Positions 12,611-60,700 of a stretch of 64,000 nt of DNA are shown in pieces. The notes below the pieces were generated by a model. The model did no database searches. It worked only from the letters and a program-made list of their open reading frames with translations, and was not told the origin of the DNA. The DNA comes from Vandiemenella viatica (lineage: Eukaryota; Arthropoda; Insecta; Orthoptera; Morabidae), in assembly GCA_031002005.1 (NCBI GenBank), contig JARYHS010013631.1, forward strand, positions 68,941,832 through 69,005,831, written 5' to 3'. Both the position numbers and the translations under genes were made by a program. Each line of letters opens with the position of its first letter. The stretch's first letter is position 1.

Positions 12611-14227
12611 AATGTTTCGGAACGTTGCAGCGCTTCGGCATATGAAGAAGAATCCAATCATTATGATGGTTGAAACGTCATAAGTTTAACGCTGTTAGAT
12701 TCCCCAGAACTCCTTATCCACATAAAAAAATTATTTCTTGAAAACAAAATCATCATTTGAGATGATGCTCAGCTTCGTAGGCGAAATTTCCTTAATGCCT
12801 TTAAAGTGACAACTCTAAGTTTGGATTTTAGTTTGGAGAAAAAAGGTAACTCTGCTGTACACAAATGACGAAATTAACAATATTGCGGTGTGTCACGTTC
12901 TTCGACAAAAATTCTCTTCTCCCCTGTCATGAGCAAAGATAGCGTGCAGACAGGAATAAAACATGAACAGGAAAGCAGACGGGAAACAAGTGGACGTGAG
13001 ATTTAGGACTAGAGACTTGACCCTAGAGCGCATTTCAACAGTCACCGATTTTCAGTCTACGGTGTACCCAAACTTTAAATATGTGAAACTTCAACTGATT
13101 TTCCCGACTTCAATGAGTGATAAATCCTAAGAGAAAGAAGGAAAAATATTTTTGCAGTCGTTATGTATGCTCCACATGCTACTCGCAATTGTTCATTCAA
13201 AACTTCCATCTAGGTGTCATCCCCAGTGTATAACTTCTACTGAGTCACGATCTACATCTTTTTTTTCTGCTTCTTATTGAGTTAATTGTAACGCTATTTA
13301 TACACACAAATTTTTCTGCACTCGTTGCTGAAACATCTATATTTGATACCTATAATGTGGATGCGATACAAACACACGATCCTCCAGCAATGGCGTGACT
13401 AAGGTTTCAATTTCAAATTCCGTTTTAATTTTGATAAGTCCCTCCATTTTCGTTTCTAATAGATGGACAATTTTAAAAATACTTTCCTATAACTTCCTGA
13501 ACGTGTAGACATAAAAAATCTTTATTTTCCTAGCTGTGTACTTAATAGATTGACACATTTTGGGATTTATCATCATACCATATTAACCTACACAACTAGA
13601 TATACTACCCGTATACCTCTGTAGATGACTACAATCTCGATGTAACCCGATTATACAGCATTATATAGCCCGCAGACAACCTCTGGCAATAAATCACGCC
13701 AGTTCAACCTCTTGCTTATGGCAAATTGTTACTTAGTTACAACGGAAAATTTGGCACCAGTGTAGTTAATTCCGTTGGAAGAAATTGCTAGAGTATTATA
13801 GACTCATATAAATGGGTCTGTTACGAGTAGATTAATGTAGATTGATGGTATCGTATCGGTATTTGCATTTTGCGTGCTAGCTAGCGCGATACATGTTAGT
13901 CGAGATATAAAGGTCAGCGTTTCTCTTGTTGTCTGCGAAATAAGCTCTCCGGTGGTCATTAATTCAATGCTAGACAAAAACAGTCGTATTTATGCCACTT
14001 GGCATTCAGCAGTGTGTTCCAATATTAAAATTCTGTTTTTGGTAAGTAGCACAAAGTGACTAGACTTGTTTAAACACCAGAACGTCTGATTTATACTTAG
14101 AATTTTTATATGACCATGACAAATGCTCATATCATGGTCACTATTCTAATCCTTTTCTTTTGGGAGAAATAAGTGTGAAACGTGTGAACTGTTCTCTGTG
14201 CGATGAAAGTCAATTCGTTGTTTGAGA
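12611..14227. other. Unassigned sequence
   Basis: About 1.6 kb without a supported gene or repeat. A GCTAGCTAGC repeat at about 13877 is the only local oddity. Confidence 0.35.
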
Positions 14228-15911: not shown

Positions 15912-16152
15912 TTTTTTTTTACGGCTTTACGCCTCGTCGACGGCTAACGTTTTAGAGGCGGGATGGGACTGGGGACAAGGAACGGGAAGGAATTCGGCCA
16001 TGGCCTTTTTTGAAGGAAGCATCCCGGCATTCGCCTGGAGTGATTTGGGGAAACCATGGAAAACCCAAATCTGGATGCCCGGACGGGGATTCGAACCCGC
16101 GTCCTCCCGAATGCGAGGCCAGAACGTTAACCGTTCACCCACCACGCTCGGT
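15912..16152 (-). mobile_element. SINE family A, well preserved
   Basis: Minus-strand copy with an intact B box (GGGTTCGAATCCC when read on the minus strand) and the full body, including GGTTTCCCCAAATCACTCCA and GAATGCCGGGATGC. The tail ends in GGCGTAAAGCCGT with a short A run. It is one of the least mutated copies and a useful reference for the family. A 72-codon minus-strand frame across it is not a gene. Confidence 0.88.
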
Positions 16153-23185: not shown

Positions 23186-23198
23186 AGTAAACCAGTTG

Positions 23199-23450
23199 AC
23201 AACAAATCTTCTCACGTTTGCAGCCGGATTTTATTAAAAAGCGACAAGCTTTCGGCAACTATCTCAACAGCCATCATCAGGTCAATTATGTAGCGAATAC
23301 CAGGTATTCATAACGGCAAGATAGCGGTACTTAATTGACCTGATGGCTGCTGAGCTAGTTGCCGAAAGCTTGTCGCTTTATAATGAAATCCGGCTGCAAA
23401 CCCGAGAAGATTTGTTGTCATTTATTCGCCGGGAAAGCCTACACTCACAT
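23199..23450. mobile_element. Penelope-type inverted fragment with hammerhead-like cores
   Basis: A 252-bp insertion flanked by an exact 13-bp duplication AGTAAACCAGTTG (23186-23198 and 23451-23463). It is made of two inverted copies of a ~95-bp segment (ACAACAAATCTTCTC, GCAGCCGGATTT, GCGACAAGCTTTCGG, CATCAGGTCAATTA). On the minus strand the left copy has CTGATGA (23280-23274) and GAAA (23253-23250), spaced by a short GGC/GCC helix. The right copy on the plus strand has the same layout, with CTGATGG at 23340. Penelope-like elements are known to carry such minimal hammerhead ribozymes in their terminal repeats and often leave inverted fragments. The link rests on the motif and my recall of the family. 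No GIY-YIG or reverse transcriptase is present. Confidence 0.72.
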
Positions 23451-33358: not shown

Positions 33359-34364
33359 TCCATTCAGATCAGGTTTGCGAATGGATACGCGATTTTCTAA
33401 CTGATTGGTCACAGTATGTCGTTGTTACCGGGGAAGCCTCTTCAAAGCTACATGTTACTTCGGGCATTCCTCAAGGAAGTGTAATAGGACCACTTCTTTT
33501 CTTAATTTTTATAAACGATCTCTGTGACAACGTTAATTGCAGGATGCGATTTTTTGCTGATGATGCACTTATTTATAGGGAAGTGAGGTGCTCTGACGAT
33601 TGCTTAGAAATTCAGCGCGATCTGGATGTTATTTCGGAATGGTGCCGTAAATGGCAGATTACACTTAACTGCAAAAAGTGCAAGGCAATGCAAATTAGTA
33701 ATAAAAAGACCCCGTTTGCTCACGAGTACAAAGTTAACAATTCAGTTGTTGACATCGTGGATTCCCTGAAGTATCTAGGCGTAACAGTACAAAGCAACAT
33801 GAAATGGGACTTGCACATAACTTCCGCCGTAAAACTAATTCTAAACTACGATTTATAGGTCGTATTTTGAAAAGTTTTAATGCTCATACAAAGGAAATAG
33901 AGTACAAAACACTAGTGCTTCCGCATTTGGAATACTGTTGTGGAATTTGGGATCCGTATCGCAAGGGATTGATTAGAGAAAGTACAGAGGAGAGCCATTC
34001 GATTCGTGACTGCTAGTTACAGTCCTTACGTAAGTGTCACAGAGCTGATACGCGGGTTGGGCTGAGATTGTTTGGCGGACAGACGACGTCGTTTTCGTTT
34101 GAATTTGTTGGAGAATATGCGAAAATTTTTAATTTACGAGTGCAACGAAATACTTCTTCCGCCAACCTATTTAGGTCGCAATGACAAGAGGGATAAGATT
34201 CGAGAAATAAGATGCCGTACTGATACATTTATGTATTCCTTCTTAGTATTATGTATTCCTTCCTAGTTCTGTTCGGGATTGGAATGCACAGAATTAGGAT
34301 TGGTGCTTAGCACCATCTGCCACCCACAGTATTTGTGATTTGCAGAGTATAGATGTAGTTGTAG
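33359..34364 (+). pseudogene. 5'-truncated LINE with reverse transcriptase, inserted in a SINE
   Basis: This non-LTR retrotransposon fragment starts within the reverse transcriptase. Visible motifs, in order: SGIPQGSVIGPLLFLIFIND (fingers/palm), FFADDALIY with the catalytic Asp pair, WCRKWQITLNCKKCKAMQIS and SLKYLGVTVQSNMKWDLHI. After a frameshift near 33.84 kb come TLVLPHLEYCCGIWDPYRKG, then ASYSPYVSVTELIRGLG and DRRRRFRLNLLENMRK, the usual C-terminal segment. The 3' end finishes TTTGCAGAGTATAGATGTAG. Endonuclease and most of the upstream protein are missing, as expected from incomplete reverse transcription. It resembles the CR1/Jockey-type group; I cannot place it further. Confidence 0.9.
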
Positions 34365-35514: not shown

Positions 35515-36150
35515 ACCTACCTAATTTTGCCATCTACAAATTTCAATTTTAAATTCTTTCAAAATTTTTGGTAAATTATTCATCACTTCTCTTGGTAACT
35601 TATTCCAATCGCTGATCCCCATACCTGTGAAGGAAAATCTTCCCACACCCTTGTGCCTGAAATTGAGTGCCATCTTGTGTTCATGGTCATCTTTTCCCTT
35701 CCATGCACTACTCTTAATTCTTCCACCAATATCTTTCCATGCGTCATCGCCAATATACGCCCTGTACACTCCCATGACCCTCTTCACCCTCCTCCTGTCT
35801 TCCAATGAATCCCATTCCAGCTCTTTTATCATATCAGTTACTGATTGAGTTCTCCGCTAATTTTCGGAGACAAATCTAGCTTCCCTTCTTTGCACCCTCT
35901 CCAACTCCTGTATTTGATACCAAAAATGTGGGTCCCATACTACACTACCACATTCGAGCAATGGTCTGACCAAAGTTTTGTAACCCAATTCCTTTACTAC
36001 TCTGGTATAGTCTCTCACCACTCTCTCCAACAAGTGGAGGATTTTGAAACCTTTCTCCTACTACCTGTCCAATGCGCCGTGCCCAGTTGAGTTTGTTATC
36101 AAATGTTATGTCAAGATATTTATATTTCAAGTCTTCTTTCCCCACCTAGT
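35515..36150 (-). pseudogene. 5'-truncated LINE, ORF2 C-terminal third
   Basis: Reading leftward from about 36130: YLDITFDNKLNWARRIGQVV (thumb region, compare YLGVTFDNKLNW in intact LINEs), then frameshifted remnants around 35.9 kb, then MIKELEWDSLEDRRRVKRVM, DDHEHKMALNFRHKGVGRFS and FTGMGISDWNKLPREVMNN. The SF..GI.DWNKLP motif is the standard end of CR1/Jockey-type ORF2. The 3' untranslated part shares blocks with 24.99-25.0 kb, so both belong to one family, distinct from the LINE at 33.4 kb. No active site remains. Confidence 0.88.
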
Positions 36151-45799: not shown

Positions 45800-46058
45800 G
45801 AATTTTAACTTCTTCAACAGCTCTTTCCGGGTGGTGTTAATATTTAACACAGAAATCTCAAATAAATCATTCGCTGAATTTGTGCAGAATGTTCTTCAAA
45901 CCAATCGTGAACGGTGACATGGTGCATTGTCGTCCTAAGAAAGTCCATCGTTGTTTTGGAACACGAAGGTCATAAATGGTTGCAAATAGCCTCCATGTAG
46001 CTAAACATAATTATTTCCTAGTAAGTCCAGTTCGACTGGAGGTCCCAGTGCGTGCCAT
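45800..46058 (-). pseudogene. Tc1-like transposase, C-terminal half (left of palindrome)
   Basis: Reading leftward from 46058 the minus strand encodes WHALGPPVELDLLGNNYV, a stop, LHGGYLQPFMTFVF, and DDNAPCHRSRLV, which carries the second catalytic Asp of the Tc1 DDE domain. After a frameshift WFEEHSAQIQRM follows. The order and spacing are those of Tc1-like transposases downstream of their conserved GVF(T/S)WHGLG segment. The start of that segment lies on the far side of the 14.2-kb palindrome, at 60254 and above. Stops and frameshifts show that it was dead, or died, independently of the split. Confidence 0.82.
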
Positions 46059-46337
46059 GTACAGTCGGGGACATAATTCGCGAGACCCTTCGCCTTTCGA
46101 TTATGCTTCGTTCTAGACACGACTGCCTCATGGGACGGCATAACAGGTAGGTGGTACACTAAATTCATGATAAAATAGACCTCTCATGCCCAGCGCTTAA
46201 CCCAAGACTAAAAAAAATGAGCTCGCGCGCGAGAGACTAGCAAACGCTCAGGGGCAAAGTTTGGGGTTCTACAGTTAAAATAATCACGAGCATTACTATT
46301 TTAATCATAATAACTATTAAATTAATTAAATTGATTG

Positions 46338-46345
46338 ATATAGAG
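46338..46345. other. Empty target site of the right-arm hAT MITE
   Basis: ATATAGAG occurs once here. In the right arm the complementary CTCTATAT is duplicated on both sides of a 326-bp MITE. Confidence 0.9.
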
Positions 46346-46904
46346 GAATGATACTGCTTTTTTTTTTAGAAATTTTGATAGCCACTCCGTATTTTTTTTT
46401 AATAAACAGTTGACAATTCGCTAACAAACAAAATTACATGATTAATACTAAAACGAATCGCTAAATTACTCACGGATAAAAATTTGTAAAACCAATAACA
46501 GAGTTTGAGTGGACTTAGTCACACGTTCTAGCGCTGCAGCGTTATCGAACTGTGTGTGACAAGCGTAAGTAGAAAGTGTATTTACGAAAGTACTCAAATG
46601 GTGAACTAAATCACGAAATATAAATTAGTTATTTCCGCATACTTCAGTAGTTCGGAATAAGAATACCTTAATTTTGTTTTTACCATAACATTTTTAGAAG
46701 GTAAGTTTAACTTGATCGCAGTAGTTACAGTTTCAGTGGTAATAATAATAATTAATAACAGTAAATCCGTCGACAATGTAAATAAGCGGTTTCAGGTTTT
46801 AAAGCTGAAAAAATGGAAGTGGGAAAGCTTTCATGCCCTCCTTTGTTTCTCCCAAGCCCTGATACTTCTTGCCTTCCAAACCAGATGGGTTATGGTTAAC
46901 AATT

Positions 46905-47100
46905 TTGCCTGGCATTCGGCAGAACGCGGATTCAAGCCCCGTAGGACATCCAATTTCAGTTTGGCATGGTTTCCGTAAATCTCTCCAGCTGAACACCGAA
47001 AAAGTTGCTTCAAAAAGCCATGGCTGAAATTATTTCCCGATTCTACTTTCCAATACTCTCAGGATTCAAATCACATTGGCGTCGAAAGAGAAGAAGAAGA
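46905..47100 (+). mobile_element. SINE family A in left arm (first)
   Basis: GGCATTCGGCAGAACGCGGA, B box GATTCAAGCCCC, GCATGGTTTCCGTAAATCTC, GTTGCTTCAAAAAGCCATGG and a tail ending ATTGGCGTCGAAAGAGAAG. The mirror copy is at about 58872-59068. Confidence 0.82.
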
Positions 47101-47114
47101 AGCATAACTCAATG

Positions 47115-47340
47115 TGGTGGGTTAGTGGTAACACTGTGAGGTGGCTTCCGGGAGGACGTGGGTTCGAATCCCCGTCCGGTTATTCAGATTTGGGTTTTCG
47201 ATGGCTTCCCCAAAATCACTCCAGGCAAATGCCTGGGTGATATCGTCAAAAAATAACGCGGCCGAATTACTTCCCGTTGCTCACCCCCGAGTACTTACCA
47301 GATTTAACCACCCCGACGTCGACAAGGCATAAAACCAAAA
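47115..47340 (+). mobile_element. SINE family A in left arm (second)
   Basis: It follows the first copy after about 15 bp, in the same orientation: GTGGTGGGTTAGTGGTAACA, B box GTGGGTTCGAATCCCCG, GATGGCTTCCCCAAAATCAC, and tail ACCCCGACGTCGACAAGGCA TAAAACC. It is better preserved than the first, so probably younger. Mirror copy at about 58632-58857. Confidence 0.85.
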
Positions 47341-48769
47341 GCAAAACAAAAAAGATACAAACCTTAAAAATGTCGCCAAATTACTGTCATTTAACAAGCT
47401 TAAAGACAAAAGCTATTGATACACCTCCAAATGATAATTTTTATTAGTAAATTCAGGAGATTGTTTTATCAATGTAAAGGAACATGTTGTGGAAGTAATG
47501 GAATCTAAACACAAACAAAAGTTGAAACTCCGAAATAATATGAGACGGAAACCCAATATTAGTAAACCCAAATTTGACGTCGTTTGTGAATATGACCCAA
47601 CGAACCAAGGTATCTTCTTTTAAAAACAAAATCACCTGCAGAGACGCCGACAGGCATTATGCCGAAAATGAATAAAAAGGCTTCACATGAAATGTTTTGC
47701 AGTTACGACACCATAGAAAGAGAAAGCATGAAAGTGTTGTAACTCATCGCTTTATTCATAATTATGTATTCATCATTAAAATTATTTTAGAAAATTACTC
47801 TTTCCGCATTTCTACTTCAAAATGCTCTCAAAGCATCTTGAAAATGTTCTATGACGTCCTATTTGCATGATGGAAATAATTCAATAATATTGTGTATTGA
47901 CCGTAAAAAAAAATAAAATAAAAAAAAAAATATAAAAAAAACCTTCAAGCTTATCTTACGGGAAATTGAACTGCTTCGATCTTTAGATTTAAATATTTTG
48001 GTTTGTTCTCTGGTAAAAGAATGAGGAAACGTGATTGCAATCACGATTGCTAACACAGATGATAAATCCAAGATGCTTCAGCGGGAGCGATTTTCCTCAA
48101 CTTTATTTACCTGCTCTGTGTTTATCCTTGAACGTTGTATCTGACACAGCTCAAGAGAGGAAATCATCATAGGAGAACAGAAAATATATACGTTGCGAAC
48201 GATCGTTTTCTGAACAATAACATAAAGTAATCTTGTCATAGTTGTTTTCTAAGACGCGGAAATGTTCGATCCACTACAGATTTCAGAATTCAGAATTCAG
48301 AATCGACTTCTGAAGGATTTAATTTGTATAACTGAAAAACATTCTGAGTTGCTAGGTGGGTTTAGGGTTCATAGTCAATTCTTGCTATATGAATTTGCAT
48401 CGCATCACGTCACCTAGTGTTTAACATCTATTCACACATCAATATGAAATAATGTGCCATTATCACTATGTAAAAGTCCCAAATTAGCAATATTCATGTC
48501 GGAAAAATTGAATAGTTCCAAAATTTTAATTGCGTATTTATTCGTCAAGACTAATGAATGAAGATGCAATTCTATCTTGGGTACTATGACAAACGATTCG
48601 CGAAGTCGTAATACAAGGAAACAGGCATCGTTTGCGTCAGAAGACGTCCTCGTCCTCTGTGCCACTTGTTTTCAAACTACAATCTGCCACAGTGTGTTCC
48701 GTTGCAACAACGAAAATGAATCGCTGAAGTGACGCTGATAGGGGGAAGAAGGGCATTCAAACAGTTCAG
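47341..48769. other. Left arm, unassigned AT-rich segment
   Basis: No gene is supported. A heptamer repeat (TTCAGAA x3) lies near 48282-48303, and an A-rich tract at 47907-47940 aligns with a T tract of 27 at 58042-58068 in the right arm. Confidence 0.4.
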
Positions 48770-49565
48770 TAGCTACAACCTTGGGGTTGCACAAATCCGC
48801 CGTGGCAAGGTGGATACGGAGATATGAAGACGAAAGAAATGTCTCAGAGCGGCCCAACACAGACAGCTGCTCGACGAAAAACAACAACTGACCAGGATCG
48901 AAAAACTGTTAGATTTTGCCGTAACTCCCCGTTTCTAAGTGCATGGCAGTTGTGGAATAACTTAAGGCTAGACATAATCACTAAAACAACCACAAGCAGC
49001 TTACGAGAAAAAGGTTTGCAAGCCAGACTTGATGCGATTAAGGAGTGGCCTAATCTTCGCATTTGATAATGCTGCCAGGTGTCCTGATTAATGGAGACAT
49101 GTCGTCTTCAGTGATGAGAAGGTGTTTACGAAGGGGTCTGCGGGTAATGTGATGGTGTACCGCCCACGTGAAGCAGGATTTGACCAACGCTACATTCACC
49201 ACAGCCGCAGAAGTGGTAGGGTATCTGTTACCGTCTGGGCGTGGAATTCTGCTGCAGGTTGCGGTGTACTGTGGGAGGTGGACGGCCGTCTTAATTCCGC
49301 AGCCTATATATCTATTTCTGGAGAACGTGATGTTGCCATCTGTGAGGCAGAGATTTCCGGAAGGGGATATCATGTTCCAGCATGACTGGTCACCAGTCCA
49401 CCGATCCCGTCTAGATCAGAGGGGATTCCTCGAACACCCCGAAATGCTGCAAATTGATTGACCACTCAAGGGCGCTGAAACACAGAAATTATTTGGGCAG
49501 AAATGGTCAGAATTATAAATGAAACGGGGGATTTGCCATTTATGACGCATGGAAATAACGCCTCA
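48770..49565 (+). pseudogene. Tc1-like transposase relic, left arm
   Basis: Pieces in order but in several frames: a helix-turn-helix VATTLGLHKSAVARWIRRYE; a second DNA-binding part with FCRNSPFLSAWQLWNNLRLD and LREKGLQARLDAIKEW; WRHVVFSDEKVF with the first catalytic Asp; RRSGRVSVTVWAWNSAAGCG; LENVMLPSVRQRFPEG and IMFQHDWSPVHRSRL with the second Asp; and a degenerate WP.KGA followed by WAEMVRIINETGDLPFMTHG. The third catalytic residue region is damaged. It is a different family from the flanking Tc1 relic (QHDWSPVH versus DDNAPCHRS). Terminal repeats of this element were not found. Its match to the outer CAGTCGGGG ends is possible but unproven. Confidence 0.88.
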
Positions 49566-50101
49566 TTTTTTTCCATTTTGTTATCGATGAGGAGCGAGGC
49601 TGGACAAGACACTGAAAGCTAACTCGGTGTTTTTTTTTACTTCTCCATAACTATTCTGCCACACCTCTTTTCCTGCATTCAGTGATCTTATCCCTGTATT
49701 ACATACTGATCCGTTTCCAAACATCATTTTTCCCTTCCTCCTCTCCCCGTCACCAAAGATATCTGGGCAGAGTACAAGTCTCAATCGAAGAAGGAACATC
49801 CAACCGTTCGTCGGTGGTGGCGTAGTAGGAAAACCGACAGAGTAGTAAAATAAGGCGTGGGAGCTGGCACGAGACTCTGTGGAAGCATTTTTTTTATCCT
49901 CTTGTTCATTTCTTTTTTGCCTCCTATATAAAATACTACACAGAAGTTTATAAGACAAGTGTACCATTCAGTCCAATAAGATAGCAATTTTTTACTCCAG
50001 TTTTAATTCTAATATTAGTGTCTGAAACATAAGTATCACAATTTTAAAAATTATGGTACTGAATTAATTTAAGGTTTAAGCTGTTGTTTTCTTTACTTAT
50101 T
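49566..50101. other. Left arm, unassigned segment
   Basis: A minus-strand frame of 128 codons (49581-49967) is the longest here. It shows no domain and is altered in the other arm by an A-rich indel, so I do not call a gene. Confidence 0.4.
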
Positions 50102-50215
50102 TTCACTGTTGCACTAAATGCTTGCGAACGCCTGGAAGGTGTCTTCAAAAGACCTTGGCCGAATTCATCCCCGTTTTTTCCCCAGTCCTTTCTTGCTTCA
50201 AATTACCTCGATGTA
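50102..50215 (+). mobile_element. SINE family A 3' fragment, left arm
   Basis: GAACGCCTGGAAGGTGTCTT, AGACCTTGGCCGAATTCATC and CCCCAGTCCTTTCTTGCTTC are family A body and tail. The head is missing. Mirror fragment at about 55735-55848. Confidence 0.75.
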
Positions 50216-50469
50216 TGTGTTGTAATGCCAAAAGGAAAAAAATTAACACTTTAAAAAAATTTAAAAAAATGTTGCTAATATCAGTGTGGATTAAAACAAA
50301 AGCTCTTGCCACCACGATTTCATCACAAAAAATTCTCAAATAAAAATATTACATCTCTGAGGTGCGTTTTGGACCTACTCCTTGTTGGATTCATCTCATT
50401 CAACCGTCGACTACGGTAGCGGATTGAATCGACTGCTTCTTCCACGTGTGTAGAGTCGCCAGTATGGTG

Positions 50470-50760
50470 TTTTTTCCTTAGGTCTGGTCGATGTCGAAAT
50501 CATTAGAGGGAGAAAAAGGACTGCGGACATCGATCGGGAAGGAACTCAGCCATGGTATTTTTACGGAACTATCTCGACACTCACGGGATGATTTCCATTA
50601 ATCATGCAAGATCAAAATCCGGATGGATGGATGAAGATTTGAATCCCTGTCCTGGAGCTATACCGGAACTGTCAGTCACTGGTGCGATTCCGGCCTGGGA
50701 CATGGGAGTTAAAGTAAGTGTTCTGTATGTCTTGTGTCGTCTTTCACTTGTATGAGCAAA
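50470..50760 (-). mobile_element. SINE family A with adjoining SINE D-like segment, left arm
   Basis: 50470-50640 is the complement of family A (GATGTCGAAATCATTAGAGG, GAACTCAGCCATGGTATTTT). At 50655-50750 the sequence switches to CTGGTGCGATTCCGGCCTGG ... GTTAAAGTAAGTGTTCTGTA, similar to the B-box side and body of family D in plus orientation. The join suggests a nested insertion. The mirrored region is about 55195-55480. Confidence 0.65.
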
Positions 50761-51594
50761 AAACATTTGGAAATACGTCAGTTCACAGAACGATGAATGG
50801 CTACCTCGGGAATTCCATTAAATATTTAAGACAATGTTATTGAACCAAAAGGCAAAAGCCGCCTTAAAAAATCTCTCACAGATTCACCCCGACTTCAAAA
50901 AATATTTTTTATTTGGTGCCAGCTAGCAACATGGCTGAGTGCTAATAAGAGTTTAAGGATAATAAGATAAAAAATTTGGAAGGAAGCCGGACTATAGTGA
51001 AGTTCTTTAGTACACACGGAGGAGTATTTAATTTCAGTTGAGTTTGTAGGACGTGATATCTTTAACACTACATGTGGTTATTATATAAGAAGAATTCACT
51101 CGAGGAAATTGCAGGTCAGAGGCAAGGAGGAAGTAACCGATGTAACAAACGTTTCGAGGAAGTGTTTATTTACCAGTGGCTCTGAGGAAGCGAAGAATAC
51201 TTGTTCAGTAGAGTTAGCTCAAATAAGGTGTGTGTGTGAATATCATCATCTGTACTCGAAATACGTCCTTTTTCGAATCACGAGCATCTATAAAAACAGC
51301 GAAAGCCATTTGCTAAAAATAACAGAAACAACTCAACTTCATATAAAACATTATTAAAGTTACGTTATCATATTTACAGGACCGGTGAAAGTGTTGAAAA
51401 ATAACTTTGAACTAATATGTATTAGTTAATACAAATTTCGGCAATTACTCCTCGACTTCATTACACTGTCAGTTCTGTCATTGCATCTTGTAAATGTTCT
51501 ACTCGTACTATTTTACTATCAAATGAATTAATTAATATTCCGTAATAATGGAGCTAATTCTTAAAAACTGGAAGTGCACGTTTTGGAAAATTGA
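50761..51594. other. Left arm, unassigned segment
   Basis: Includes an 82-codon frame (51109-51357) that is unchanged in the right arm. It shows no recognisable domain; identity may simply reflect recent duplication or conversion. Confidence 0.4.
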
Positions 51595-51850
51595 TCTGCC
51601 TCCATCTGTTGATTCGAATACTTTGCAACCTTCGTTTTCTGTGACCATTCAGCCTGATTCAGTTTGTATTTTTCTGACTATTGTGTCAGGTTTTGCAGAG
51701 GTAATGTGGCACACTATAGTGAAGCCAACACAATATGAACACTACATTCATTTAAAACTACCAATGTGGGAGGACGGACTCAAATCGGCGACCCTTAAAA
51801 TGCGATGATAGCATTCTAACCCCTATACCGCTAGGGCTAGCTTGAGTGTC
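51595..51850 (-). mobile_element. SINE family D, left arm
   Basis: The minus strand reads GCTAGCCCTAGCGGTATAGG (A-box side), GATTTGAGTCCGTCCTCC (B-box side), GGTAGTTTTAAATGAATGTA GTG and CACTATAGTGTGCCACATTA. It corresponds to the copy at 36.5 kb. The mirror copy lies at about 54102-54357. Confidence 0.75.
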
Positions 51851-52636
51851 TTGGTCGGGACTCTAGTGAAGGAATTTGTGAACATGTCTGCGGTCACGGT
51901 TTGCTAACACGGCTGACAATTCCGGAGGCCCACAGGACAAGGAAATTATCAGGCATGTGATTTTCCTCATGCTCCTTCTACTACTCTGCGTCTGCGTCTG
52001 TGTCTGTTGTTGGACAAATGTAAATATCTGACTTAATCACTGAACTATTCGCAACGCCTTGTAGACGATTATTTTATTGCAGACAATAATGTTTAGTGTA
52101 TATTTAAACTACATTGTTTTATAAGAAGGGAAGCTGCGGTAGATCATGGCCAGATATTGTTTTACGGGGTATGATTGTGTGGTACTGTTCTATGACGTTC
52201 CATTTCTTTCGACAACCTTGCCATTGTTTATCTCTGATCTCTCAAATTCTAGCAATAAAACCGTTTGAATGTCGCTTTTCATGCAAAGTCATAATTTCCG
52301 CCTTCTCAAGTCAATCAAATGGCTAGTTGTGGCTGATGTAACAATTCACACTGAAGCAGACCTAAGTTTGAATAGAGGTATTCGATGAGGAAGTATTCTG
52401 GCAGGAAACGATGCGAATTTCCTTCTATTGTAACTTCTGACTTTTTTTTGCATCGTATACATAATAAAACTACATCTTCCTTCATTAGAGCCTAGACAAA
52501 GCAATTTCAAAAAGAAATTTTGTAATTGTAAAACTTTTGTCAGGAATACTGTTGCATTAGAGTCGTTTACAAAATGATAACTGATTATCTCGTTTAGATG
52601 TGTGAATAACTTTTAAATACTAGGTAATGTGAAGCA

Positions 52637-52900
52637 TTGCAGAAATTCAACGAGAATCATTTCTGGACACTGAACCCATTTCTGTACATTTCAAATTTTC
52701 ATTTTGCAGCTATGGTGTTAGATGTTGATAGTATTTGGAATTATAATTTCTCATCTGCAAACTGCGTATCAGTTTTTCCTTTTACACACATTAACCATTT
52801 TAAATATTTAGGGCTAAAAGCCTCGATGCAGTCTAAGAAAGTAAATATAGGAGAGAATTGTGAACAAAGAATACGAAAAAAATTGATCAATGTTTTTACA
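52637..52900 (+). pseudogene. Possible LINE reverse-transcriptase relic
   Basis: A frame with THINHFKYLGLKASMQSKKV and then CEQRIRKKLINVF follows the pattern F.YLG ... EI..RI..A that lies between the reverse-transcriptase thumb and the C-terminal domain of many LINEs. Only this short motif pair supports the call and there is no FADD motif. Confidence 0.35.
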
Positions 52901-52904
52901 GGAA

Positions 52905-53010
52905 TCATCCTGGCATTAATCGTCTAAGATTTTGAGAAAAATGGAAAAACCAAATTTGATATCCTACGGGAATTTGAAGAGGCATGCTAATTCTGTTCGC
53001 GATTGGGGCT
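52905..53010 (-). mobile_element. SINE family A fragment
   Basis: GAATCATCCTGGCATTAATC, AAAAATGGAAAAACCAAATT and TACGGGAATTTGAAGAGGCA are the complement of the family A central part and B box, considerably mutated. Confidence 0.6.
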
Positions 53011-53296
53011 ACCATAGCATTTTCTACTAGGAAGAATAGTCTTGGTAAAAGAACGCTCTCAACGTTACAGTTAGTGACGTTGACTAATTCCATACACAGT
53101 TGAGATTATAAAATTCTTATGTCTAACTTTTGAAGTAAAAGGTTGATTGCTTTTCAAACAGGAATAAGTTGGATTTGTAAAAGTGAAATGAACTTTTCTT
53201 CGAAAAACTAACTAAGAGGTTACCTATATGCATATAAAAATGAGTGGATAAGGATTAAAGAGACACAAAGTCTTTAAGATCTGAAATCCTTAAGGC

Positions 53297-53400
53297 AATG
53301 GTTCTCAATTAGTGGTACGCGTATCCCCAGGGTTACATGGGGCTGTTGCAAGGGGCAATCAGTAAGATACTTGCAAAAAAATAACACAAAAAATTTGAAA
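53297..53400. mobile_element. Fragment of the 59.6-kb hAT MITE family
   Basis: CAATGGTTCTCAATTAGTGG TACGCG and TATCCCCAGGGTTACATGGG parallel the terminus of the 59.6-kb element read inward (CAGTGGTTCCCAATTAGGGG, TACCCCCAGGGGTACGTGAG). Only one end is present. Confidence 0.6.
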
Positions 53401-53659
53401 ACATTTCTACGACACAAAGACAATCAAACTGTCTGTGTGTGAATTAAAATTCTGTAATGCTGTAACAGTGCGAAGCACTGAACTGGGATGAAAGGAACGG
53501 CACAAGCAGCTCGGATTCACGTGGTAGAGACTGTAGTCTAGTGTTTAAAATATTAATGAGTATACTACTAGGCTGCAGATAGATATATTAAATAAAATCT
53601 TTGTTAGAGACATTCTGTTAAGTTTGTTCCTGAATGAATACTTCTTATATTTAATTCAG

Positions 53660-53865
53660 AAAACTGTGCCTGATAGGTGAGCGATAATGCTCTCGCCTTG
53701 AAAGGACACGGGATCAATCCTCGTCCGACCATCCAGAATTGGCTTTTCTACAGTTTCTCCAAATCACTTCAGGGTTTCTTCAAAAGGCTCGTAAATTGAA
53801 CTTATTCAATTACCGCTTCCAATGATCTCAAATTCAAAGAGGAGTAAAGCTATAAAGAATTTTTT
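53660..53865 (+). mobile_element. SINE family A in the spacer
   Basis: CCTGATAGGTGAGCGATAAT, a damaged B box GGATCAATCCTCG, CCAGAATTGGCTTTTCTACA, TCCAAATCACTTCAGGG and TCCAATGATCTCAAATTC. It is unrelated in position to the arm copies. Confidence 0.72.
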
Positions 53866-54101
53866 AAAAAAGTTCAGAAAGCCCTGGTTACTCAGGTATA
53901 TACGGTTCTACTTCTGAGTAATTCTGTTGTCTGTTGAACTGTGTCCAACAACAGACACAGACGCAGAGTAGTAGAAGCAGAATGAGGAAAATCACATGCC
54001 TGATACTTTCCTTGTCCTGTGGGCCTCCGGAATTGTCAGCCGTGTTAGCAAACCGTGACCGCAGACATGTTCACAAATTCCTTCACTAGAGTCCCGACCA
54101 A

Positions 54102-54357
54102 GACACTCAAGCTAGCCCTAGCGGTATAGGGGTTAGAATGCTATCATCGCATTTTAATGGTCGCTGATTTGAGTCCGTCCTCTCACATTGGTAGTTTTAA
54201 ATGAATGTAGTGTTCATATTGTGTTGGCTTCACTATAGTGTGCCACATTACCTCTGCAAAACCTGACACAATAGTCAGAAAAATACAAACTGAATCAGGC
54301 TGAATGGTCACAGAAAACGGAGGTCGCAAAGTATTCGAATCAACAGATGGAGGCAGA
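54102..54357 (+). mobile_element. SINE family D, right arm
   Basis: Mirror of 51595-51850, with ATTTTAATGGTCGCTGATTT in place of the left arm's ATTTTAAGGGTCGCCGATTT when both are read in SINE orientation. Confidence 0.75.
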
Positions 54358-55194
54358 TCAATTTTCCAAAACGTGCACTTCCAGTTTTTAAGAAATAGCT
54401 CCATTATTACGGAATATTAATTAATTCATTTGATAGTAAAATAGTACGAGTAGAACATTTACAAGATGCAATGACAGAACTGACAGTGTAATGAAGTCGA
54501 GTAATTGCCGAAATTTGTATTAACTAATACATATTAGTTCAAAGTTATTTTTCAACACTTTCACCGGTCCTGTAAATATGATAACGTAACTTTAATAATG
54601 TTTTATATGAAGTTGAGTTGTTTCTGTTATTTTTAGCAAATGGCTTTCGCTGTTTTTATAGATGCTCGTGATTCGAAAAAGGACGTATTTCGAGTACAGA
54701 TGATGATATTCACACACACACCTTATTTGAGCTAACTCTACTGAACAAGTATTCTTCGCTTCCTCAGAGCCACTGGTAAATAAACACTTCCTCGAAACGT
54801 TTGTTACATCGGTTACTTCCTCCTTGCCTCTGACCTGCAATTTCCTCGAGTGAATTCTTCTTATATAATAACCACATGTAGTGTTAAAGATATCACGTCC
54901 TACAAACTCAACTGAAATTAAATACTCCTCCGTGTGTACTAAAGAACTTCACTATAGTCCGGCTTCCTTCCAAATTTTTTATCTTATTATCCTTAAACTC
55001 TTATTAGCACTCAGCCATGTTGCTAGCTGGCACCAAATAAAAAATATTTTTTGACAAGCGGGGTGAATCTGTGAGAGATTTTTTAAGGCGGCTTTTGCCT
55101 TTTGGTTCAATAACATTGTCTTAAATATTTAATGGAATTCCCGAGGTAGCCATTCATCGTTCTGTGAACTGACGTATTTCCAAATGTTTTTTGC

Positions 55195-55480
55195 TCATAC
55201 AAGTGAAAGACGACACAAGACATACAGAACACTCACTTTAACTCCCATGTCCCAGGCCGGAATCGCACCAGTGACCGACAGTTCCGGTATAGCTCCAGGA
55301 CAGGGATTCAAATCTTCATCCATCCATCCGGATTTTGATCTTGCATGATTAATGGAAATCATCCCGTGAGTGTCGAGATAGTTCCGTAAAAATACCATGG
55401 CTGAGTTCCTTCCCGATCGATGTCCGCAGTCCTTTTTCTCCCTCTAATGATTTCGACATCGACCAGACCTAAGGAAAAAA
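55195..55480 (+). mobile_element. SINE family A with SINE D-like segment, right arm
   Basis: Mirror of 50470-50760. GGGATTCAAATCTTCATCCA, GAAATCATCCCGTGAGTGTC and CCTCTAATGATTTCGACATC follow family A order. Confidence 0.65.
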
Positions 55481-55734
55481 CACCATACTGGCGACTCTTC
55501 ACACGTGGAAGAAGCAGTCGATTCAATCCGCTACCGTAGTCGACAGTTGAATGAGATGAATCCAACAAGGAGTAGGTCCAAAACGCATCTCAGAGATGTA
55601 ATATTTTTATTTGAGAATTTTTTGTGATGAAATCGTGGTGGCAAGAGCTTCTGTTTTAATCCACACTGATATTAGCAACATTTTTTAAAATTTTTTTAAA
55701 GTGTTAATTTTTTTCCTTTTGGCATTACAACACA

Positions 55735-55848
55735 TACATCGAGGTAATTTGAAGCAAGAAAGGACTGGGGAAAAAACGGGGATGAATTCGGCCAAGGTCT
55801 TTTGAAGACACCTTCCAGGCGTTCGCAAGCATTTAGTGCAACAGTGAA
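55735..55848 (-). mobile_element. SINE family A 3' fragment, right arm
   Basis: Mirror of 50102-50215: GAAGCAAGAAAGGACTGGGG and GAATTCGGCCAAGGTCTTTT. Confidence 0.75.
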
Positions 55849-56419
55849 AATAAGTAAAGAAAACAACAGCTTAAACCTTAAATTAATTCAGTACCATAAT
55901 TTTTAAAATTGTGATACTTATGTTTCAGACACTAATATTAGAATTAAAACTGGAGTAAAAAATTGCTATCTTATTGGACTGAATGGTACACTTGTCTTAT
56001 AAACTTCTGTGTAGTATTTTATATAGGAGGCAAAAAAGAAATGAACAAGAGGATAAAAAAAATGATAAAAAATAAAAAAAAATCTTCCACAGAGTCTCGT
56101 GCCAGCTCCCACGCCTTATTTTACTACTCTGTCGGTTTTCCTACTACGCCACCACCGACGAACGGTTGGATGTTCCTTCTTCGATTGAGACTTGTACTCT
56201 GCCCAGATATCTTTGGTGACGGGGAGAGGAGGAAGGGAAAAATGATGTTTGGAAACGGATCAGTATGTAATACAGGGATAAGATCACTGAATGCAGGAAA
56301 AGAGGTGTGGCAGAATAGTTATGGAGAAGTAAAAAAAAACACCGAGTTAGCTTTCAGTGTCTTGTCCAGCCTCGCTCCTCATCGATAACAAAATGGAAAA
56401 AAATGAGGCGTTATTTCCA

Positions 56420-57215
56420 TGCGTCATAAATGCCACCGGGTCGTTGGCAAATCCCCCGTTTCATTTATAATTCTGACCATTTCTGCCCAAATAATTTCTG
56501 TGTTTCAGCGCCCTTGGGTGGTCAATCAATTTGCAGCATTTCGGGGTGTTCGAGGAATCCCCTCTGATCTAGACGGGATCGGTGGACTGGTGACCAGTCA
56601 TGCTGGAACATGATATCCCCTTCCGGAAATCTCTGCCTCACAGATGGCAACATCACGTTCTCCAGAAATAGATATATAGGCTGCGGAATTAAGACGGCCG
56701 TCCACCTCCCACAGTACACCGCAACCTGCAGCAGAATTCCACGCCCAGACGGTAACAGATACCCTACCACTTCTGCGGCTGTGGTGAATGTAGCGTTGGT
56801 CAAATCCTGCTTCACGTGGGCGGTACACCATCACATTACCCGCAGACCCCTTCGTAAACACCTTCTCATCACTGAAGACGACATGTCTCCATTAATCAGG
56901 ACACCTGGCAGCATTATCAAATGCGAAGATTAGGCCACTCCTTAATCGCATCAAGTCTGGCTTGCAAACCTTTTTCTCGTAAGCTGCTTGTGGTTGTTTT
57001 AGTGATTATGTCTAGCCTTAAGTTATTCCACAACTGCCATGCACTTAGAAACGGGGAGTTACGGCAAAATCTAACAGTTTTTCGATCCTGGTCAGTTGTT
57101 GTTTTTCGTCGAGCAGCTGTCTGTGTTGGGCCGCTCTGAGACATTTCTTTCGTCTTCATATCTCCGTATCCACCTTGCCACGGCGGATTTGTGCAACCCC
57201 AAGGTTGTAGCTACT
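56420..57215 (-). pseudogene. Tc1-like transposase relic, right arm
   Basis: Mirror of the left-arm relic with the same broken frames: FCRNSPFLSAWQLWNNLRLD, MFTKGSAGNVMVYRPREAG and IMFQHDWSPVHRSRLDQRG are residue-for-residue identical to the left arm. The gene was therefore already broken before the arms formed, or the copies have been kept alike by conversion. No additional repair or intact frame is present. Confidence 0.88.
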
Positions 57216-58037
57216 GAACTGTTTGAATGCCCTTCTTCCTCCCTATCAGCGTCACTTCAGCGATTCATTTTCGTTGTTGCAACGGAACACACTGTGGCAG
57301 ATTGTAGTTTGAAAACAAGTGGCACAGAGGACGAGGAAGTCTTCTGACACAAACGATGCCTGTTTCCTTGTATTACGACTTCGCGAATCGTTTGTCATAG
57401 TACCCAAGATAGAATTGCATCTTCATTCATTAGTCTTGACGAATAAATACGCAATTAAAATTTTGGAACTATTCAATTTTTCCGACATGAATATTGCTAA
57501 TTTGGGACTTTTACATAGTGATAATGGCACATTATTTCATATTGATGTGTGAATAGATGTTAAACACTAGGTGACGTGATGCGATGCAAATTCATATAGC
57601 AAGAATTGACTATGAACCCTAAACCCACCTAGCAACTCAGAATGTTTTTCAGTTATACAAATTAAATCCTTCAGAAGTCGATTCTGAATTCTGAATTCTG
57701 AAATCTGTAGTGGATCGAACATTTCCGCGTCTTAGAAAACAACTATGACAAGATTACTTTATGTTATTGTTCAGAAAACGATCGTTCGCAACGTATATAT
57801 TTTCTGTTCTCCTATGATGATTTCCTCTCTTAGCTGTGTCAGATACAACGTTCAAGGATAAACACAGAGCAGGTAAATAAAGTTGAGGAAAATCGCTCCC
57901 GCTGAAGCATCTTGGATTTATCATCTGTGTTAGCAATCGTGATTGCAATCACGTTTCCTCATTCTTTTACCAGAGAACAAACCAAAATATTTAAATCTAA
58001 AGATCGAAGCAGTTCAATTTCCCGTAAGATATGCTTG

Positions 58038-58068
<31 letters not shown>

Positions 58069-58631
58069 AGGTCAATACACAATATTATTGAATTATTTCC
58101 ATCATGCAAATAGGACGTCATAGAACATTTTCAAGATGCTTTGAGAGCATTTTGAAGTAGAAATGCGGAAAGAGTAATTTTCTAAAATAATTTTAATGAT
58201 GAATACATAATTATGAATAAAGCGATGAGTTACAACACTTTCATGCTTTCTCTTTCTATGGTGTCGTAACTGCAAAACATTTCATGTGAAGCCTTTTTAT
58301 TCATTTTCGGCATAATGCCTGTCGGCGTCTCTGCAGGTGATTTTGTTTTTAAAAGAAGATACCTTGGTTCGTTGGGTCATATTCACAAACGACGTCAAAT
58401 TTGGGTTTACTAATATTGGGTTTCCGTCTCATATTATTTCGGAGTTTCAACTTTTGTTTGTGTTTAGATATCTTCACTTCCACAACATGTTCCTTTACAT
58501 TGATAAAACAATCTCCTGAATTTACTAATAAAAATTATCATTTGGAGGTGTATCAATAGCTTTTGTCTTTAAGCTTGTTAAATGACAGTAATTTGGCGAC
58601 ATTTTTAAGGTTTGTATCTTTTTTGTTTTGC

Positions 58632-58857
58632 TTTTGGTTTTATGCCTTGTCGACGTCGGGGTGGTTAAATCTGGTAAGTACTCGGGGGTGAGCAACGGGA
58701 AGTAATTCGGCCGCGTTATTTTTTGACGATATCACCCAGGCATTTGCCTGGAGTGATTTTGGGGAAGCCATCGAAAACCCAAATCTGAATAACCGGACGG
58801 GGATTCGAACCCACGTCCTCCCGGAAGCCACCTCACAGTGTTACCACTAACCCACCA
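58632..58857 (-). mobile_element. SINE family A, right arm (mirror of second)
   Basis: Mirror of 47115-47340, essentially unchanged: the 63-codon frame across it is identical in both arms. Confidence 0.85.
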
Positions 58858-58871
58858 CATTGAGTTATGCT

Positions 58872-59068
58872 TCTTCTTCTTCTCTTTCGACGCCAATGTG
58901 ATTTGAATCCTGAGAGTATTGGAAAGTAGAATCGGGAAATAATTTCAGCCATGGCTTTTTGAAGCAACTTTTTCGGTGTTCAGCTGGAGAGATTTACGGA
59001 AACCATGCCAAACTGAAATTGGATGTCCTACGGGGCTTGAATCCGCGTTCTGCCGAATGCCAGGCAAA
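58872..59068 (-). mobile_element. SINE family A, right arm (mirror of first)
   Basis: Mirror of 46905-47100; CGGGGCTTGAATCCGCGTTC contains the complement of its B box. Confidence 0.82.
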
Positions 59069-59641
59069 ATTGTTAACCATAACCCATCTGGTTTGGAAGG
59101 CAAGAAGTATCAGGGCTTGGGAGAAACAAAGGAGGGCATGAAAGCTTTCCCACTTCCATTTTTTTCAGCTTTAAAACCTGAAACCGCTTATTTACATTGT
59201 CGACGGATTTACTGTTATTAATTATTATTATTACCACTGAAACTGTAACTACTGCGATCAAGTTAAACTTACCTTCTAAAAATGTTATGGTAAAAACAAA
59301 ATTAAGGTATTCTTATCCGAACTACTGAAGTATGCGGAAATAACTACATAATTTATATTTCGTGATTTAGTTCACCATTTGAGTACTTTCGTAAATACAC
59401 TTTCTACTTACGCTTGTCACACACAGTTCGATAACGCTGCAGCGCTAGAACGTGTGACTAAGTCCACTCAAACTCTGTTATTGGTTTTACAAATTTTTAT
59501 CCGTGAGTAATTTAGCGATTCGTTTTAGTATTAATCATGTAATTTTGTTTGTTAGCGAATTGTCAACTGTTTATTAAAAAAAAAATACGGAGTGGCTATC
59601 AAAATTTATATAAAAAAAAAAGTAGTATCATTCCTCTATAT

Positions 59642-59967
59642 CAGTGGTTCCCAATTATTTTTCCCGAGTACCACTGCAAGAAGGAGCTCAACCGCGCGTA
59701 CCCCTTACAGCTGAAATGATAAATAAATGAATCCGTTCATGCCTGTAGAGTGCTTCTCACAACCACAGGATTACAATGATATAATTGACACAAACACAGT
59801 TTATCTTAAAATATATTTGGGTGATAGTAATGTTTCTTTTGGCTGATAAAAGTGGATTTTTTTCAATTATTTTAGTGATCACCTTAGCCAAGAGACTACC
59901 GCGCGTACCCCCTGAAGAAACCTCACGTACCCCTGGGGGTACGCTTACCCCTAATTGGGAACCACTG
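59642..59967. mobile_element. hAT MITE present only in the right arm
   Basis: 326-bp element with ends CAGTGGTTCCCAATTA and TAATTGGGAACCACTG (perfect over 16 bp), flanked by an exact 8-bp duplication CTCTATAT at 59634-59641 and 59968-59975. Subterminal blocks CGCGCGTACCCC occur twice. It has no coding capacity. The left arm retains the unoccupied octamer at 46338-46345, so insertion followed formation of the two arms or the arms are different alleles. Confidence 0.95.
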
Positions 59968-60253
59968 CTCTATATCAATCGATTTAATTAATTTAATAGT
60001 TATTATGATTAAAATAGTAATACTCGTGATTATTTTAACTGTAGAACCCCGAACTTTGCCTATGAGCGTTTGCTAGTCTCTCGCGCGCGAGCTCATTTTT
60101 TTAGTCTTGGGTAAAGCGCTGGGCATGAGAGGTCTATTTTATCATGAATTTAGTGTACCACCTACCAGTTATGCTGTCACATGAGGCAGTCGTGTCTAGA
60201 ACGAAGCATAATCGAAAGGCGAGGGGTCTCGCGAATTATGTCCCCGACTGTAC

Positions 60254-60700
60254 CTGTAAACACAGCCCGTACCAGGTTGTAGCCGCCTCCTGCATGCAAA
60301 ATGCCATCTTAACAACCTGGGTCCATGTTCTCGTAGGATCTGTGCCACAATCAACCCATACAGTCAAACTCTTAACAAGTAGAATCATCTGTTTACGCGA
60401 CTTTTTTCCATTCATCTAGGGTCCAACAGATATGTTCACGAGCCCAGGGAGAGACACGTCTGCTGATGGCGTTTTGTTAGCAGAGGCACTCGCGTTGAAC
60501 TTCTGCTGCCATATCCTATAAACACCAAATTTCGCTGCACTGTCCGCTGGGACACGTCTGTCGTACGTCCTACATCGAGTGTTGCTGTTCTTTATAGCAG
60601 TGACACGTCGACTCAGACGTCGCTGGTCTCGGTCATTAAGTAGACGTGATCAGTCACTGAGATGCGGCCGGTAATGGCGAGAATTACATATTGATCTCAC
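60254..60700 (-). pseudogene. Tc1-like transposase, N-terminal half (right of palindrome)
   Basis: Reading leftward from about 60700: LNDRDQRRLSRRVTA (second DNA-binding region, compare TDRDRRRL), a frameshifted segment RNLVFIGYGSRSSTRVPLLT, then SWAREH-like WAREHICWTLDEWKKVA, a damaged TDES.F region with the first catalytic Asp, MDPGC and GGGYNLVRAVFT. It stops at the palindrome border. The following residues of the family (WHGLGPLV) are found at 46058 downward on the same strand. This half therefore pairs with the pseudogene at 45800-46058. Confidence 0.85.

Follow-up and report, generated by a model that had tools for sequence, protein, structure and literature searches.

A palindrome of 14,189 bp occupies positions 46062-60250 of the window (the whole 64,000-nucleotide stretch of DNA analysed here), and the question it raises is whether such a structure is a mobile unit, a duplicated piece of host DNA or a product of assembly. 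The preliminary description had reported two inverted arms around a spacer of about 1.9 kb, with both outer ends beside TA; BLAST of the window against itself agrees, and the flanks in fact read GTA...TAC. Self-BLAST and global alignment place the left arm, a giant terminal inverted repeat of 5,955 bp whose sequence recurs in the other copies read, at 46062-52016 (plus strand), and its inverted copy, the right arm of 6,309 bp, at 53942-60250 (minus strand). A 1,925-bp spacer lies between them (52017-53941). Arms of "about 6 kb", as first described, was thus a fair approximation; the exact lengths differ mainly by a later 326-bp MITE present only in the right arm (59642-59967), which is flanked by an 8-bp duplication, CTCTATAT (59634-59641 and 59968-59975), and which we take to be of hAT type from its CAGTGGTTC ends and that duplication. 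This insertion is the sole break between two inverted matches, one pairing 46336-52001 with 53951-59643 (98.5% identity, 29 mismatches in 5,709 columns) and an outer one pairing 46059-46345 with 59968-60256 (96%). The outer terminus, CAGTCGGGGACATAATTCGC, was located by self-BLAST and motif search at 46062-46081 (plus) and 60231-60250 (minus); these are its only two sites in the window at up to three mismatches, with a chance expectation of 0 (100 shuffles). Each terminus overlaps a GTAC, at 46059-46062 (TA at 46060-46061) and 60250-60253 (TA at 60251-60252).

The same termini are dispersed through the genome. Within 3.72 Gb, 656 sequences lie no more than one mismatch from TACAGTCGGGGACATAATTCGC, compared with 0 for a reversed-pattern control. 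Pairing covered the 100 exact termini listed; 50 of these form 25 inward-facing pairs, 3,446-19,541 bp apart, and two neighbouring pairs have other orientations. Ten copies, on different contigs, were read end to end, and all ten are palindromes with arm sequence in common with the window copy, an arm-to-arm identity of 95.2-99.8%, and lengths of 5.7-15.5 kb, the latter being the longest complete copy read. Every copy comes from one assembly, with runs of N inside L017, L019 and L026. Because near-exact termini abound genome-wide and the reversed control gave none, the window palindrome is not a misjoin, and it is confirmed as a real member of a large family of giant-palindrome DNA elements. 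The proposal that the entire palindrome, non-coding cargo included, was mobilised as a single unit with transposon ends is supported by the genome-wide termini, the inward pairs and the varied flanks; the suggestion of a small mariner element that acquired its arms at this locus, as a one-off, gives way to membership of this family. The spacer is less constant: its sequence is present in five of the ten other copies (C8b, L016, L022, L025 and, for 119 bp only, L024), absent from C7107b, C8347, L009, L018 and L027, and also found in the partly fetched L020, L021, L023 and L028. Where central in other copies it lies in either orientation, and in some it has been deleted.

All 12 complete copies have the arrangement GTA-element-TAC, so that TA stands on both sides and always within GTAC. 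Each of the 26 distinct readable ends starts with CAGT and is preceded by GTA, as are two of two further right ends and four of four short-copy ends; the sequence outside GTA varies from copy to copy at all 26. Within the window, the GTAC background is 160 of 4,679 TA sites. A duplication of TA inside GTAC and a duplication of GTAC itself yield identical letters, and no 6-bp duplication was seen by eye in 10 flank pairs. With one TA removed, the joined flanks of C7107b give an ungapped, junction-spanning alignment to a relic of a reverse transcriptase within the window (13440-13700, minus strand), a single, distant case at 63% identity. The junction reads ATTAGGTACACAGA, compared with ATTAAGTACACAGC in this related empty site, which has a single GTAC; keeping one TA gave an alignment score of 48, compared with 44 for two TAs, 42 for no TA and 38 when GTAC was left out. 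The joined flanks keep a 119-codon frame open, and this frame also has a gap-free match of 24% identity in a second relic (33634-33831). For the window copy, matches to the joined flanks run through the junction at 38 other loci, and the target is a decayed Tc1-like element (so labelled by eye from its translation) running from 45864-46061 into 60253-60448, both on the minus strand. Compared with two related empty sites, L036 and L037 (72% identical), which are without GTAC, these joined flanks have 6 bp extra at the junction, and the fit is best minus those 6 bp (177 and 175, versus 169 and 167 with one TA). Peptides from joined flanks gave nothing useful in Pfam and one chance match in PDB (E 1.6). 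The best reading of these sequences is insertion at GTAC, with TA or GTAC duplicated, because the distant empty site related to C7107b has GTAC once; the same site disfavours GTAC as a mere part of the terminus.

No working transposase gene was found in the window copy, the first 9 kb of L016, L032 or L033, where only a broken Tc1-like relic appeared. In the window this relic has broken frames in both arms, at 48773-49461 (plus) and 56522-57210 (minus), with weak profile matches: HTH_23 (E 2.3e-5 over 48400-49500, stop codons being read as X) and HTH_Tnp_Tc3_2 (E 0.044 in the window, 0.003 in L016), all below curated cut-offs. The dead transposase of the preliminary description is thus present as cargo, but as a captured Tc1-like relic rather than as a demonstrated mobilising enzyme. 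The arms also contain a dispersed repeat, originally labelled a SINE, at 47149-47281 (plus; 84% match, and also at 15978-16109), with a counterpart identified by self-BLAST at 58691-58823 (minus). Polinton/Maverick elements carry virus-like genes and duplicate 6 bp of their target; neither a viral nor a Polinton-like origin was retained, because six-frame translation of 9 kb of L016 revealed no such gene.

The two arms of the window copy appear to have copied one another, because 101 private substitutions are common to both (16 and 14 are found in one arm only) and because a 640-bp deletion scar with short filler (48281-48310, plus; 57674-57703, minus) is identical in the two; the process is read from a pattern observed in some copies. 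Sharing (both arms/only a/only b) is also strong in L009 (23/1/0) and L027 (27/6/6), partial in C7107b (15/10/20), L022 (39/37/45) and L024 (6/1/11), and weak or absent in C8347 (3/27/54), C8b (6/55/8), L025 (3/12/13) and L016 (0/1/78). Deletion junctions are identical between the arms of L025 too, and mosaics were seen among arms. The shared substitutions may already have been present in the source copy, and the weak-sharing copies, L016 above all, require either (i) ectopic recombination, (ii) assembly chimerism or (iii) simple decay. Transitions and transversions are alike in the two classes (118/105 for shared, 213/200 for one-arm substitutions). Despite this similarity, consensus errors or conversion tracts are possible sources of the one-arm substitutions, because they show a stronger tendency to cluster: 84 of 413 lie no more than 3 bp from the one before, versus 23 of 223 shared ones.

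Large palindromes are hard to assemble, and the unequal arm ages of some copies, such as L016, together with the N in some stretches, are what one might expect if two haplotypes or family copies had been joined head to head. The window arms nevertheless belong together, because both carry the same 101 private substitutions and a deletion scar peculiar to this copy; moreover, both flanks derive from one interrupted repeat and the same architecture recurs on different contigs, making an assembly artefact very improbable. We give hardly any credence to an inverted segmental duplication of host DNA that ended by chance at a transposon terminus and did not move as a unit. It would accord with arms of ordinary dispersed repeats in which no gene was found, and the 14.6-kb inverted-repeat units of the Anopheles inversion 2Rj are termed segmental duplications by their authors (PMC1952172), but it sits poorly with hundreds of termini, identical ends, varied flanks and a constant GTAC. 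For the window copy, a misjoin of haplotypes and an inverted duplication arising by chance were both rejected on the combination of shared substitutions, scar, contiguous target and family copies.

Two short copies, L032 and L033 (3.4 and 4.7 kb, with terminal repeats of ~200 and 470 bp), would suit an ordinary short Tc1/mariner family whose giant arms are later, copy-specific growth. Both, however, are made almost wholly of giant-form arm sequence with parts absent, and no pair closer than 3,446 bp was found among the 100 exact termini listed (of 656 in all), so that such growth is distinctly improbable. Judged from their sequence the two are deletion derivatives, and their candidacy as autonomous ancestors was rejected once they had been read. 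MITEs measure hundreds of bp, and that label was likewise rejected for a family whose shortest listed pair spans 3,446 bp. The Tc1/mariner assignment itself deserves more caution: CAGT plus TA, the features on which the label depends, were indeed seen, but the target was GTAC in every complete copy. Termini beginning AGTCGGGGAC, together with duplication of a palindromic 4-bp target, GTAC, could instead belong to a superfamily other than IS630-Tc1-mariner, the CAGT/TA resemblance being a by-product. This is a serious though unlikely alternative, against which stand the lack of any enzyme pointing to another superfamily and the fact that Tc1/mariner elements typically end in CAGT beside TA.

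We consider it probable that the family consists of non-autonomous, foldback-like DNA transposons with giant inverted repeats, which are mobilised in trans and whose arms exchange sequence. Terminal inverted repeats would have grown to about 6.5 kb around a spacer of ~2 kb, and a transposase made elsewhere would act on the conserved outer ends, presumably by cut-and-paste; the CAGT termini and TA-centred target make an enzyme of IS630-Tc1-mariner type probable. The unit would insert at GTAC, duplicating TA or GTAC; its arms carry trapped repeats, the copies scanned having yielded no working gene. Counting against this model, neither an autonomous partner nor a transposase bearing these ends came to light in the copies scanned. 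Gene conversion, or break repair templated on the opposite arm, before or after insertion, would make the substitutions and deletions of one arm appear in both, and deletions would produce shorter copies. A bolder version, which we regard as rather doubtful, is a GTAC-strict lineage, possibly an undescribed superfamily, with giant self-templating arms, in which arms of unequal age are candidate inversion breakpoints.

In such a GTAC-strict lineage, arms that repair each other or are overwritten by other copies would keep ends and architecture functional without a gene of their own, and copies whose two arms differ in age would point to recombination between elements. According to published work, deletion and rearrangement are frequent fates of long palindromes (PMC1952172); even so, a large eukaryote-like genome can evidently mobilise nearly wholly palindromic units of 14-15 kb and multiply them until their termini number in the hundreds. 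The family provides many natural replicates for measuring arm-to-arm and ectopic exchange, suggests how orphan palindromic segmental duplications, the 2Rj units among them, could arise, and, with its GTAC target and missing transposase, poses a defined, searchable puzzle.

Among known systems, IS630-Tc1-mariner elements share with this family the CAGT terminus adjoining TA, and a Tc1-like relic lies inside the present element; the family differs in the absence of a transposase from the copies scanned and in the use of GTAC rather than any TA. Its arms are also roughly 5-9 times longer than the long repeats of Tec (about 700 bp; PMC7325037) and of one Sailor (1,362 bp; PMC8533490). Like foldback-type elements (FB, Galileo of the P superfamily, Tetris), it has a middle domain enclosed by long terminal inverted repeats, and its copies are spread through the genome with defined ends. 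The literature gives Tetris repeats of up to 1,735 bp (PMC4079207) and, in 2007, a maximum of 1-2 kb for other foldback elements (PMC1952172), unlike the arms of about 6-6.6 kb here. Tandem subrepeats, frequent though not universal in foldback elements, are lacking in the window arms, where Tandem Repeats Finder returned A- or T-rich runs only. Galileo repeats can lengthen through transfer of an insertion from one repeat to its partner (PMC4168063), and Galileo copies at inversion breakpoints have repeats that come from different copies (PMC2775673); Galileo's 7-8-bp duplication is unlike the GTAC target. In our literature search the terminal sequence appeared in no paper, and among the papers listed the 2Rj units of Anopheles gambiae were the one comparable case with repeats of several kb. 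Those units (14.6 kb, with 5.3-kb inverted repeats and a 4-kb spacer) share the plan of inverted repeats and spacer, no coding capacity and degenerate transposon pieces; there, two copies are described, with no other full-length copy recognised and a possible 8-bp duplication discussed (PMC1952172). Unlike the 2Rj units, for which there is no target rule, the present family has defined ends, termini numbering in the hundreds and a GTAC target.

The window copy consists of a left arm (46062-52016) and a right arm (53942-60250) separated by a 1,925-bp spacer. CAGTCGGGGACATAATTCGC is the exact outer end of both inverted arms, upholding the preliminary description, according to which the arms stop exactly at transposon-like termini. 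Of the two BLAST segments that compose the arms, one had 29 mismatches over 5,709 columns and the other 10 over 284; the arms are identical over long stretches, and divergence is higher in their outer 280 bp than further in. The unequal arm lengths are due mainly to a 326-bp MITE, flanked by an 8-bp duplication (CTCTATAT), which is present in the right arm only and which, judging from its ends, we take to be hAT-type. By eye, stretch 53293-53350 of the spacer resembles this MITE and so may hold an older relative of it. Apart from the large unit, a short imperfect palindrome lies at window 23197-23420 (224 bp, 82.7% against its own reverse complement).

We searched the window's own assembly (3.72 Gb, 8,965 contigs) for related elements. 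When the outer 239 bp were used as query, the best 40 of 1,305 candidates were scored, and all matched across the full 239 bp. With at most one mismatch, TACAGTCGGGGACATAATTCGC occurred 348 times in forward and 308 times in reverse orientation, and its reversed control 0 times in either. Copy number is best given as these 656 termini, with a ceiling of about 328 two-ended copies. Among the 100 exact termini listed, 50 could be joined into 25 pairs that face inward at less than 30 kb, with spacings of 3,446 to 19,541 bp, and two neighboring pairs showed other orientations. The termini thus recur as inward pairs, and the arms of the both-ended copies match those of the window, in support of the preliminary inference that the palindrome moved as one unit.

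The sample, drawn from one assembly and chosen by similarity to the window copy's end, contains ten both-ended copies: the window copy, C7107b (fetched stretches L010 and L011), C8b (L012 and L013), C8347 (L014 and L015), L009, L016 with L029, L018, L022 with L031, L025, and L027. The right end of an eleventh (L024 with L030) lies just beyond the fetched stretch, and two further copies, L032 and L033, are short. The ten both-ended copies, which span 5,721 to 15,544 bp, are all palindromic; identity in their inverted matches is 95.2-99.8%, and in L018 and L027 the match is split into pieces. The spacer was found in five of ten non-window copies (in L024, 119 bp only) and is deleted in the remainder. 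Excluded from the complete-copy count were (i) L020, L021, L023, and L028, each of which covers a single end, one arm, the spacer, and a portion of the other arm; (ii) L017, L019, and L026, in which a family match of 0.8-1.4 kb is followed by N runs of about 1 kb inside the element; and (iii) L008. Retrotransposon-like frames were seen beyond the N run in L017. Contigs C7, C8, C4537, and C7729 are nearly equal in size (388,957,591 to 388,957,675 bases), as would be expected had large chromosomes been trimmed to a fixed length.

GTA precedes all 26 distinct ends (33 rows showed an end, seven of them repeat views; the L021 end, cut by the fetch, was left out), and two further right ends and four more ends also agree with this rule. 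Every one of the 12 copies with two complete ends has the form GTA/CAGTC...GACTG/TAC. As GTAC accounts for only 160 of the 4,679 TA sites of the window, TA preference alone does not explain these flanks; because GTAC is palindromic, duplication of the TA inside it and duplication of GTAC as a whole yield identical letters.

Pre-insertion sites were modeled by joining the outer flanks of a copy. With one TA removed, the joined flanks of C7107b keep a 119-codon frame open and align gaplessly over the junction to a window relic with a single GTAC there; the alignment score, 48 with one TA, falls to 44 when two are kept, to 42 when neither is, and to 38 when GTAC is left out. The relic is only 63% identical, making this empty site one distant case. 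The frame is also ungapped against a second relic (window 33634-33831, 24%); by eye it resembles a LINE reverse transcriptase, and it gave no Pfam match. Fragments matching it, with the LINE label again by eye, lie at window 13340-13600, 33634-33980, and 35899-36136. The joined flanks of the window copy matched 38 other loci over the junction at 70-72% (best 40 of 2,904 candidates, two being the window itself), identifying the target as a decayed repeat. This repeat (45864-46061 and 60253-60448) reads by eye like a Tc1-like transposase and, with 2,904 first-look candidates, belongs to a high-copy family. Two related loci without the element, L036 and L037, lack both GTAC and 6 bp present exactly at the window junction, and fit the joined site best once those 6 bp are taken out. 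This comparison, which involves two distant relatives only, counts against a simple insertion model: the 6 bp were either (i) already in the target copy, thereby creating GTAC, or (ii) added by the insertion.

The sequence scanned yielded no intact gene, and in the copies concerned the family is therefore non-autonomous; the mobilizing enzyme would be supplied from elsewhere. In L016, six-frame Pfam analysis of the first 9 kb, which take in one arm together with the spacer and the start of the other arm, yielded a Tc1-like helix-turn-helix (E 0.003) and a weak mucin-like match (E 0.056), and the window relic at 48400-49500 matched HTH_23 (E 2.3e-5), all below curated cut-offs. L032 and L033, the two short copies, derive from longer ones by internal deletion; their terminal repeats measure about 200 and 470 bp, and the frames they contain are all broken. 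The termini fit IS630-Tc1-mariner, and that assignment is likely but unproven; the family was not filed there, because its duplication is ambiguous and the scanned copies encode no working enzyme.

Four aligned regions of the arms, with 5,000 columns scored in the window copy, were used to count private substitutions, meaning those absent from all other copies of the alignment. In the window copy, 101 are common to the two arms, versus 16 and 14 confined to one or the other. Both its arms also lack a 640-bp block, with identical junction and filler; nine of the ten other copies keep this block wholly or partly in both arms, and in the tenth, L025, it is gone within a larger deletion whose junction is identical in the two arms. 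The shared changes may have moved between arms in the window copy itself or in its source; whichever hosted the transfer, the arms exchanged sequence.

Other copies differ in sharing (both arms/only a/only b), which is strong in L009 (23/1/0) and L027 (27/6/6), partial in C7107b (15/10/20), L022 (39/37/45), and L024 (6/1/11), and slight or absent in C8347 (3/27/54), C8b (6/55/8), L025 (3/12/13), and L016 (0/1/78). Substitutions in L022 are one-sided across the outer 2 kb and shared deeper inside; C7107b shares them mainly 0.5 to 2 kb from the end and is elsewhere one-sided, on a side that varies; and C8b is mixed in its outer 2 kb, then one-sided. Outer-region arm divergence within a copy is 0.07 to 4.09%, as against 3.58% on average between copies, so some arm pairs differ as much as arms taken from different copies. 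Ectopic recombination, as described for Galileo at inversion breakpoints (PMC2775673), or chimeric assembly could account for the one-sided copies, most of all for L016; the same two possibilities apply to the unequal arms of L016 with L029, C8b, and L022 with L031. Exchange between arms also has a parallel in Galileo, for which it has been proposed that an insertion gained by one repeat can pass to its partner (PMC4168063).

We conclude that the palindrome family works like a foldback transposon and fits the foldback structural description, although its repeats exceed severalfold the lengths quoted for such elements (PMC1952172, PMC4079207). Within the open-access literature searched, no counterpart was found besides the unit of Anopheles inversion 2Rj. 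That unit has the same plan as the elements here, but, unlike this family, it was described as a segmental duplication, with no further full-length copies (PMC1952172).
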